Positions 16,998-28,544 of a stretch of DNA of 64,000 bases are shown here, piece after piece. Numbering within the stretch: position 1 is the stretch's first letter; each line of letters opens with the position of its first letter. Origin of the DNA: Phenylobacterium sp. Lineage in GTDB: Bacteria > Pseudomonadota > Alphaproteobacteria > Caulobacterales > Caulobacteraceae. The translations under genes were made by a program, and so were the position numbers. The DNA is taken from NCBI RefSeq assembly GCF_016124325.1, contig NZ_WGNY01000003.1, positions 78,428 through 142,427 of the forward strand, read 5' to 3'. The notes under the pieces were generated by a model that saw only the letters and a list, made by a program, of their open reading frames with translations, was not told the origin of the DNA and searched no databases.

Positions 16998-17684
16998 ATG
17001 GGCAAGGTCTTCGTGGCGGCGCTGGCCGCCGCGGCCGCAACCGCGTTCGCCGCGGCGCCGGGGTACGCAGCCGTATTCGACGATTTCAACCGGCCCGACG
17101 CGGCCGACCTGGGGTCGAACTGGACGCAGGTCGCCGACAGCTCGTTCATCAGCGGGAACCAGGCCGGCGGCGGCATCCAGGCGCTGGCGACCTACAACGG
17201 GACCGAGGGCGCGACCAGCGTGTCGATGGACGTCGCGCTGACGGCCAACGGATTTGGCTATGTGGGCGGGGTGCTCGGCTGGGGTTCGGCGTTCAACTAT
17301 TTCGTGAAGGTGCAGGGGCGTGACGGGGCGTTCCTCAACTACGCGTTCTACACCGGCAACAACGGCGACGGGGACTACTTCACCCTGAAGGAAGGGTTCT
17401 CCACCGGGCGCATCACGGTGACCGTGGCCGGTTCGGTCGTCACGCTCGACATCGTCCCGGACGCCGGCGCGGCCCAGAGCTATTCGCACGACTACGGGAC
17501 CGCGTTCTCCGGCGGCTTGGCCGGCCTCGCCCTCTATCAAGGCGGCCGGGCCGACAACTTCGGCACCGACGGGGCTGTGGGCGGGGGCGGCGTGCCCGAG
17601 CCCGCGACCTGGGCGCTGCTGGTCCTGGGCTTCGGCGCGGCCGGCGCCACGATGCGCCGCCGCCGGGCGGCCCTCGCGGCCTAG
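16998..17684 (+). CDS. PEPxxWA-CTERM sorting-domain secreted protein
   Basis: N-terminal signal peptide; C-terminus 'VPEPATWALLVLGFGAAGATMRRRRAA'. Confidence 0.88.
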   Translation: MGKVFVAALAAAAATAFAAAPGYAAVFDDFNRPDAADLGSNWTQVADSSFISGNQAGGGIQALATYNGTEGATSVSMDVALTANGFGYVGGVLGWGSAFNYFVKVQGRDGAFLNYAFYTGNNGDGDYFTLKEGFSTGRITVTVAGSVVTLDIVPDAGAAQSYSHDYGTAFSGGLAGLALYQGGRADNFGTDGAVGGGGVPEPATWALLVLGFGAAGATMRRRRAALAA

Positions 17685-21884: not shown

Positions 21885-22643
21885 CTATCGAAGGCGCTCG
21901 CCGAACGCCGGGCGACGACGCAGCGACGCGCCGGCGGCGGCGAAGCCCAGGATCATCAGCGACCACGCGGCGGGTTCGGGCACGGTCGAGACGGGGTCGC
22001 CCCCGTCGGACGGCGTGTCGGGCGTGTCGGTCAAGGTGTAGGCGCGGGTGAGCGTGACGCCGCCGACCGCGTCGCCGAAGTCGGTCTGGAACAGCCCGCT
22101 GTAGTGGCCGATGAAGAAGGACGCGTCGAAGCGTCCGAAGGTGTCGGCGGCCGTCAGGTCCAGCGGCGTGTCGAGCGTGGCCGGCAGCAGGTTGGAATTC
22201 ACGAAGGCGTCGAGCTGGAACACCGGCGCGCCGTCGATGTGGTTCGAGGCGATCTCGACCTTCTGCTCCAGGCTGTGCTCCAGCGTGGAGAGGCGCGAAA
22301 ACGCCTGGGCCGGCGCGGACGGGCTGAAATCGATGGTGATCCCGTCGATCGTCACCGAGGCGGCCACGAACGGCGAGAGCCCGGCCGAGGTGGTGAGGCT
22401 GTCGCCCAGGCCGGGGATCGTGAACCGATTGATCGCGTCGTCGAACGACATCCGGATCTCGATCGCGCGCCCGTCGAGGGACGACCCGCCGCCGAAGAGA
22501 CCGGCGGAATCGAGCCCGAAGGCGACATAGCCCTCGTAGACGTTCGTGAAGACGGTGGCGGACGAGGAGGCCGGAACCGCGACCAGCGCCATCGCCGCCG
22601 CGCAGGCCGCCAGCGGGCGCTTCAATTCCAACTTGAACTGCAC
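21885..22643 (-). CDS. PEPxxWA-CTERM sorting-domain secreted protein
   Basis: C-terminus 'VPEPAAWSLMILGFAAAGASLRRRPA'; signal peptide. Confidence 0.87.
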   Translation of the reverse strand: MQFKLELKRPLAACAAAMALVAVPASSSATVFTNVYEGYVAFGLDSAGLFGGGSSLDGRAIEIRMSFDDAINRFTIPGLGDSLTTSAGLSPFVAASVTIDGITIDFSPSAPAQAFSRLSTLEHSLEQKVEIASNHIDGAPVFQLDAFVNSNLLPATLDTPLDLTAADTFGRFDASFFIGHYSGLFQTDFGDAVGGVTLTRAYTLTDTPDTPSDGGDPVSTVPEPAAWSLMILGFAAAGASLRRRPAFGERLR

Positions 22644-26567: not shown

Positions 26568-27104
26568 GTTGGCTGCTCTCGTTCGCTGGCGGCGACCGTT
26601 CCCGCCCTGGGCGAAAAATTCGGCACGATCCCTGCATCCGGACGTTCCAACGGCCCGTAACTGCTCAGCTTGGAACAGTCGGGCGAAACGTCGGACACAG
26701 GTTCAAGCCATGCGGGACGCGACGAACGTGCAGAACGGGGCTGGCACGGTTGAGGCGAATTTCCGGCCATCGGGCGCAGCCGGGCCGGAGCGCTTGCGTG
26801 CGGCTGCGCGGCAAGGTTGCGCCCTCGCAATCCCGAGTTTGCGCAAGATTACGCCCCGAGAGGCGGCGATTCTCCTAACAGGTGTTCAGCGTTGCGGTTT
26901 TGCGACGCCGCCGGCCATTGTGCAGCCTGAAGCCGGCGCCGCGTCCCCCCGAGCGGCGCGCACCCACGGCGCCAGGAGCAGGATCATGCTGGCGAGGAGA
27001 GATCATCTCGCCAAGACGGGCGGGGTCGAGACGGGCCGTAGCGGCGCCGCCCTGACGGGGCAAAGCGTCGCGGTCGCCAAGGTCTTAACGACTCCTCGAC
27101 GGAA

Positions 27105-28544
27105 ATGTGGCACCTTGACCGGAAGCGGTGGCTCCGGGGGGGCGCTGCGTGGTTCGACGCGTCGAGTTCATCGTTTGAAGGTTTCCACGTCCACTTCGGC
27201 CCGGCCGACCCGCGAGCGGGCGGTGCGCGCATGACCGCCGGCGCTTTCGACAGCCGCCAGCGCGGGGGCCTGCTCGCGTGGCTCTGGCCGGCTCCGCTGG
27301 CGCGGGAAGAGCGCCGCGGCGTGGCCTGGCTGGCCAGCCTGCTGGGCTGGCTGTGGCCTGACCGTCTCCAGATCGAGAGCTTCGGCGCCCGCCATGGCGT
27401 GTCGCGCCTGTTCGGCCGGCTGTGGCCGCAAGCCGCCGACCAGCGCATGGCGCGCTGGTGGCGGATGAGCTGGCTCTGGGCCTGGCTGTGGCCGGGCCGG
27501 GTGATGGGTCCGAACGGCGAGATCTGCCCGCTGATGCCCTGGCACCGGGCCCTGCGGCCCGAGTTCTGCCCGGGCGAGCCCTGGCACCGCCGGGCGCTGC
27601 GCCATAGCGGCGCGGCGGTGATGATGATGTCGGCGACCGCGATCGCCGCGCCCACCTTCATGGAAGGCGTCAGCCCCCTCGACGGCGGCCGGATCAGCCT
27701 GTTCCGCAGCGGCGGCGCCACGGGCGACCAGGGCGGCGGCGCGACCGGCGGCTCGACCTCGGACGGCGGCGGCCAGACCGGCGGCGGCGATCAGGGCGAT
27801 GGCGGCGGCGCGGGCGGCGACGGCGGTGGCGCTGGCGGCGCGGGCGGCGGCTCGGCCGGGTCCACTGGCACGCAGGTGGCCGACAACTCCAATTTCACCG
27901 ACATCGGCGGCGACAGCGGCTTCCAAGGCGTGAGCGGCGTCGGCGGCGGCGCGGGCGGCGGTTCTGGCGATGGCTCGGGCTCTGGCGATGGTTCCGGCGA
28001 CGGCTCCGGTGGCGACGGCGGCGGCGATGGCGGCTCCAACCCGCCGGGCACGACCTTCCTCGACCCGCCCGCGCCTGATCCCGGCACGGACCTCGGCGGC
28101 GACGACGGTGGCAACTTCTTCCTTGGCGGCCTCGGCGGCGGCGGCGGCGGTGGTTCGGGCGGCGGTGGAACCGGCGGCTCGGGCGGCGGCGGCACGGGTG
28201 GCGGCGACCCCACCGGCGGCGATCCGCTGAATCCCACGCCCCCGACCGACGAGCCGACGCTTCCGGGCGACAAGCCCACCTTCCCGACCCTGCCCGGCGG
28301 CAACGGCGGCGGCGCGACGGGCGGCGGCGGCACGGGTGGCGGCGGTACGGGCGGCGGTACGACGCCCCCGTCCAACGAGGTCACGCCTGGCGGCGGCGGC
28401 GGCGGCGGTGGTGGCGGCTCGAACTCGACCACGCCCACCGGCAGCGTGCCTGAGCCGGGGACCTGGGCGCTGATGATCGTGGGCTTCGGCTTCGCCGGCT
28501 ACGTTCTGCGCCGGCGCCGTATCAGCGCCCGCATCAGCCTCTAA
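27105..28544 (+). CDS. PEPxxWA-CTERM protein with LWP-repeat N-terminus and long Gly-rich region (alternative start 27231)
   Basis: C-terminus 'SVPEPGTWALMIVGFGFAGYVLRRRR'; Gly/Asp/Ser-rich centre; four LWP motifs near the N-terminus. Confidence 0.85.
   Translation: MWHLDRKRWLRGGAAWFDASSSSFEGFHVHFGPADPRAGGARMTAGAFDSRQRGGLLAWLWPAPLAREERRGVAWLASLLGWLWPDRLQIESFGARHGVSRLFGRLWPQAADQRMARWWRMSWLWAWLWPGRVMGPNGEICPLMPWHRALRPEFCPGEPWHRRALRHSGAAVMMMSATAIAAPTFMEGVSPLDGGRISLFRSGGATGDQGGGATGGSTSDGGGQTGGGDQGDGGGAGGDGGGAGGAGGGSAGSTGTQVADNSNFTDIGGDSGFQGVSGVGGGAGGGSGDGSGSGDGSGDGSGGDGGGDGGSNPPGTTFLDPPAPDPGTDLGGDDGGNFFLGGLGGGGGGGSGGGGTGGSGGGGTGGGDPTGGDPLNPTPPTDEPTLPGDKPTFPTLPGGNGGGATGGGGTGGGGTGGGTTPPSNEVTPGGGGGGGGGGSNSTTPTGSVPEPGTWALMIVGFGFAGYVLRRRRISARISL

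Follow-up and report, generated by a model that had tools for sequence, protein, structure and literature searches.

The question raised by this locus is what a block of tandem tryptophan-rich repeats does in front of the export signal of a surface protein. PEP-CTERM proteins are usually pictured with an unadorned signal peptide at the N-terminus and a single sorting signal at the C-terminus. The gene considered here lies on the forward strand of a 64,000-nucleotide stretch of the contig NZ_WGNY01000003.1 of Phenylobacterium sp., a bacterium of soil and water, this stretch being referred to as the window, and encodes a 437-residue precursor (ATG at 27231 to TAA at 28544). As set out below, its N-terminal ~139 residues may form an extended export leader of a PEP-CTERM surface protein, a reading to which we give a probability of about 0.5.

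Start codon and translation of the repeats

An earlier note on this DNA began the protein at ATG 27105, 42 codons upstream of ATG 27231. A start equivalent to ATG 27231 is found in all 19 orthologues (16 ATG, 3 GTG), preceded in most by a G-rich Shine-Dalgarno-like run, and in each of the other 18 orthologues the open frame ends 11-44 codons further upstream. Thus, 27231 is taken as the start and 27105 is ruled out. With this correction, the four LWP motifs that had been numbered 60, 83, 106 and 128 fall at residues 18, 41, 64 and 86.

The repeats themselves are translated, as shown by a frame free of stop codons across them in 19/19 orthologues, by the pattern of codon variation, with position 3 the most variable in every section of the alignment, and by the conservation of their W/W/P residues. 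This makes highly improbable the late start, at or after about residue 165 in the earlier numbering, that was to have refuted the repeat domain, with the repeats untranslated and translation beginning near the hydrophobic segment; M102 does lie ~24 codons ahead of the hydrophobic core in the window, but it is a start codon in only one of the 19 orthologues.

An in-frame GTG-ATG at 27501-27506 (codons 91-92, in GRVMGP) is a possible second start. Were initiation to occur here as well, a signal peptide of ~48 residues without the repeats would be made, and the two forms would coexist. A start codon is present at position 91 or 92 in 16 of the 19 orthologues, but it is absent from the other three, and the surrounding residues are conserved as protein (GPDGEIC), so that the codon is explained without a second start. 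Moreover, a short form could not replace the long one, since the upstream units are conserved as protein. Dual initiation is therefore considered improbable.

Repeat units, export signal and sorting tail

Four LWP motifs, spaced by 23, 23 and 22 residues, are present in the forward frame of the window as described. Composition-preserving shuffling of the first 125 residues of the window protein yielded four LWP in 1 of 100,000 trials, and the W.WP counts of three orthologues (L005, L006 and L012), which have four or five each, were reached in 0 of 100,000, indicating that the repetition is beyond chance. While the repetition is thus real, the conserved unit is not LWP but W-h-W-P, in a copy number of 2-5. 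There are five copies in three species, four in most and two in L019; a strict pattern gives three in the window protein and in L020. In the alignment of the 19 orthologues, the units are mostly spaced by 22-25 residues, and the W/W/P columns average 96% identity versus 59% for the linkers.

In core 1 (WLWP, residues 17-20, 27279-27290), W17, W19 and P20 are invariant in 19/19 sequences, while in core 2 (WLWP, residues 40-43, 27348-27359) W42 is invariant and W40 and P43 are 95% conserved. Core 3 (RLWP, residues 63-66, 27417-27428) is atypical in the window protein, which has R at the first position where 17/19 sequences carry W; the orthologues read W-h-W-P, with columns 89-95% identical. Core 4 (WLWP, residues 85-88, 27483-27494) sits inside a tryptophan cluster, WWRMSWLWAWLWP, with W87 and P88 invariant. 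The pN/pS ratio is 0.65 across the repeat block and falls to 0.25-0.36 over unit 4 and its following loop, with the leader minimum of 0.25 over residues 81-92, although these ratios are rough because synonymous sites are near saturation.

The conserved loop (residues 89-120, 27495-27590, pN/pS 0.36) reads GRVMGPNGEIC...PWH...C in the window protein, with cysteines at 99 and 113, and GPDGEIC...PWHPA..PE.C in its orthologues. C99 is invariant and C113 is present in 17/19. A zinc-finger reading of C99/H105/C113/H118 was dropped, as the fourth ligand is often Y, R or T in the alignment as judged by eye.

The export signal (residues 126-139, 27606-27647) was assigned from pattern and hydropathy and comprises a hydrophobic core with a predicted cut after AIA and before AP. 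Across the 19 orthologues MM, A137, A139 and P141 are invariant, and every sequence carries a signal-peptidase-type A-x-A/[AS]P (the slash marking the cut), with AIA/AP or a close variant ending the core; in the L016 orthologue, where a further MM occurs earlier in the sequence, this region reads SATAIAAP. The late hydrophobic segment that had been noticed is thus found at residues 126-144, and the orthologue alignment places the repeats N-terminal to it. It is a short segment of weak hydrophobicity (Kyte-Doolittle 19-residue mean 1.27-1.87), and outside it no stretch of the leader exceeds a mean of 1.3. In eight leaders for which it was calculated, the net charge ranges from +2 to +8. Wimley-White interfacial sums for the 8-residue repeat cores range from about -2 to about -8 kcal/mol, and on the octanol scale the unit-4 tryptophan cluster, at -9.7 kcal/mol over 19 residues, is strongly hydrophobic and the best-scoring stretch of the entire N-terminus.

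The mature body (27648-28442) would begin APTFMEG..GGR[LI]NLF and continues as Gly-rich low-complexity sequence, with 40% Gly and neither Trp nor Cys; across the orthologues it is Trp-free and almost Cys-free. Nearly all Cys, and all Trp except that of the sorting tail, are confined to the ~140-residue leader. The tail (28443-28520) matches the PEPxxWA-CTERM models NF035944, at residues 406-429 (E 1.8e-12; 46.9 bits against a curated cut-off of 35), and PF07589 (E 1e-7; 32.2 against 20.7), in keeping with the family assignment first made by eye.

The usual PEP-CTERM layout has the signal peptide directly at the N-terminus; here the hydrophobic core lies ~125 residues past the start. In a survey of 74 PEPxxWA proteins of the same genome, a count that includes two short fragments rather than whole proteins and from which a paralogue with a PEPSAWIV tail escaped, in 73 a hydrophobic stretch lies no more than 25 residues from a start codon. 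Only the window protein lacks a start codon near its signal, and it alone has W.WP. The window contains two more PEPxxWA-CTERM genes, at 16998-17684 (+) and 21885-22592 (-), whose signal peptides are ordinary.

Distribution, locus and exosortase

Protein searches across 101 Phenylobacterium species found 18 further orthologues, giving 19/101 species in total, Phenylobacterium kunshanense BUT-10 among them. The orthologue is single-copy, and leader identity is 49-63%. Every orthologue that shares the Gly-rich/PEP-CTERM body also retains the repeats, and no repeat-less orthologue was found. When 390 Caulobacteraceae genomes from 22 genera were searched with a profile, matches came from Phenylobacterium, with no significant match in the 21 other genera, nor was there a significant match in a sample of 385 alphaproteobacterial genomes. 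Weak matches in other genera (E 0.001-0.01) were short pieces only and were taken as chance, and an early weak match, L002, was an unrelated frame resembling a glycosidase. A DNA pattern for W.WP pairs matched 99/101 genomes of the genus and was swamped by chance matches. Sequence searches of Pfam, NCBIfam, PHROGs and the PDB gave no match to any part of the leader, in agreement with the view that it has no named family. The leader is thus real, conserved, lineage-restricted and uncatalogued in these four resources.

A paralogue in the same genome (L051:1366-2406, G000:C53) has a single LAWLWP unit (LAWLWPSAIADEVFG), a signal of the same type and a PEP-CTERM tail reading PEPSAWIV. The profile match by which it was found (E 1.6e-4) spans no more than the signal, and where the paralogue itself starts is uncertain, as an ATG lies just before that signal.

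The gene stands alone, being monocistronic and convergent with the next gene, with a long non-coding region upstream. Downstream synteny is conserved at most loci and the upstream genes differ between species; no partner gene or operon was found at the orthologue loci, where the neighbours are unrelated. Repeat partners near exosortase genes, as had been proposed, are not supported, since the exosortase of this genome (PF09721, G000:C3:141282-142043, E 2.4e-56) is on another contig. PF09721 was detected in 16/19 genomes with the protein versus 21/82 without it (Fisher p 3.5e-6, ignoring shared ancestry). In the other three (those of L017, L018 and L019: G098, G004 and G084), neither profile nor protein search found a PF09721 exosortase, despite 15-60 PEPxxWA sites, which reflects either assembly gaps or an unrecognised exosortase.

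A conserved 70-base block of upstream DNA, GGCAAAGCGTCGCG...TTAACGAC...GGCACCT... (27059-27128, forward strand), lies ~100-170 bases before the start. It aligns nearly gap-free in most orthologues, is degenerate in L018 and L019, and occurs once in its own genome by pattern search. A sigma-54 motif precedes many proteobacterial PEP-CTERM genes (Haft 2006; PMC1569441). In the block, GG-N10-GC (-24/-12) spacing was not seen by eye. The block is probably a promoter with a regulator or operator site. A search of Rfam gave no credible match.

A possible docking leader and its alternatives

In its sorting tail, in the exosortase of its genome, and in being monocistronic with a long non-coding upstream region, the gene resembles the PEP-CTERM/exosortase system as described (PMC1569441). 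N-terminal signal peptides have been reported in nearly all PEP-CTERM proteins, whereas that of the window protein is ~125 residues in, behind the Trp repeats (PMC1569441). A leader motif on a C-terminally sorted surface protein has a precedent in the YSIRK/GXXS motif of S. aureus SpA, which directs precursors to the septum (PMC5962339). There too, a motif before the hydrophobic core is combined with a C-terminal sorting signal, that of LPXTG proteins; however, YSIRK is one short Gram-positive motif, while here 2-5 W-h-W-P units extend over ~75-100 residues. The long signal peptides of type V autotransporters (ESPR/NtraC) likewise place a positive N-domain ahead of an ordinary signal core on a Gram-negative export substrate; in the examples considered they are ~52-55 residues long and lack tandem Trp-Pro repeats, and the substrate is an autotransporter rather than a PEP-CTERM protein (PMC2805444). 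Among the Pfam and NCBIfam models, none of YSIRK type matched at E<=1, and neither ESPR nor an autotransporter domain matched, the PEP-CTERM models being the only ones to do so. The leader appears to work most like a long export leader; none of the sequence features that define the known leader families is present in it, and it is probably unrelated to YSIRK or ESPR.

A part in controlling export or sorting at the membrane interface, as put forward in the earlier note, is plausible. It is suggested that each W-h-W-P unit would form a short hydrophobic half-helix, stopped by its proline, that lies in the cytoplasmic leaflet of the inner membrane and places its Trp residues at the interface. Acting together, several such units would keep the precursor on the membrane, or at one selected site, until it is passed to Sec. 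The hydrophobic core would then enter SecYEG and signal peptidase would cut at A-x-A/AP, leaving the leader inside while the body is exported; exosortase would subsequently process the PEP-CTERM tail and hand the body on to the surface or the matrix. In this way the leader could set the place or timing of export and yet be absent from the mature protein. Translation, conservation, the place before the export signal and the sorting tail are shown by the sequence, and we infer the membrane docking, the cleavage after AIA, the retention of the leader inside and the effect on place or timing.

This removable docking leader, with the mechanism in full, is held at about even odds. It is favoured by the start shared in 19/19 orthologues, by the 96% versus 59% column identities and by a unit that is kept while its copies vary from 2 to 5. 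The net positive charge is as expected for a segment kept inside, and the interfacial values of the cores and the A-x-A/[AS]P of every orthologue also argue for it, as do the lone exception among 74 PEPxxWA proteins, the one-unit paralogue and the YSIRK/GXXS precedent. AlphaFold gives no confident fold or domain (pLDDT 50, pTM 0.24), which weakens the model and leaves the half-helix picture to rest on sequence. The octanol-strong unit-4 cluster might insert, complicating the topology; a cleaved signal peptide of 139 residues would be very long; and three genomes have the protein and no recognisable exosortase.

The chief rival is that the protein is not cleaved at all, but is a type II membrane protein with the hydrophobic segment as its signal anchor, the Trp repeats as a permanent cytoplasmic sensing or binding domain and the Gly-rich body reporting from the outside. 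An N-terminus of domain length, whose conserved two-Cys loop (C-x13-C) is under the leader's strongest constraint (pN/pS 0.25-0.36), would seem too much for a targeting tag. Such a protein is nevertheless doubtful given the shortness and weak hydrophobicity of the segment, the cleavage-site pattern in all orthologues, the lack of a partner gene that travels along and the lack of a domain in the AlphaFold model. Much less likely still, the leader could itself be the product, a cleaved cationic Trp/Pro-rich peptide active on membranes like some antimicrobial peptides. Its Trp-Pro-rich, net positive composition presumably resembles that of indolicidin-type peptides, but a leader that precedes a Sec signal is retained within the cell, and there is no adjacent immunity or processing gene; this reading is very unlikely, if somewhat less so than untranslated repeats.

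Returning to the docking leader, one may tentatively go further and ask whether it represents a new Gram-negative class, in which a tandem W-h-W-P tag on the cytoplasmic side steers a PEP-CTERM precursor to a particular place, such as a cell pole or the plane of division, or else slows its export, the number of copies setting the strength. This extension is possible rather than likely. We know of no other N-terminal routing element for the exosortase pathway. Here, one conserved substrate of about 80 in the same cell bears a large extra leader, and the natural versions with 2, 3, 4 and 5 units, together with the one-unit paralogue, make the routing of exosortase substrates before export directly testable.
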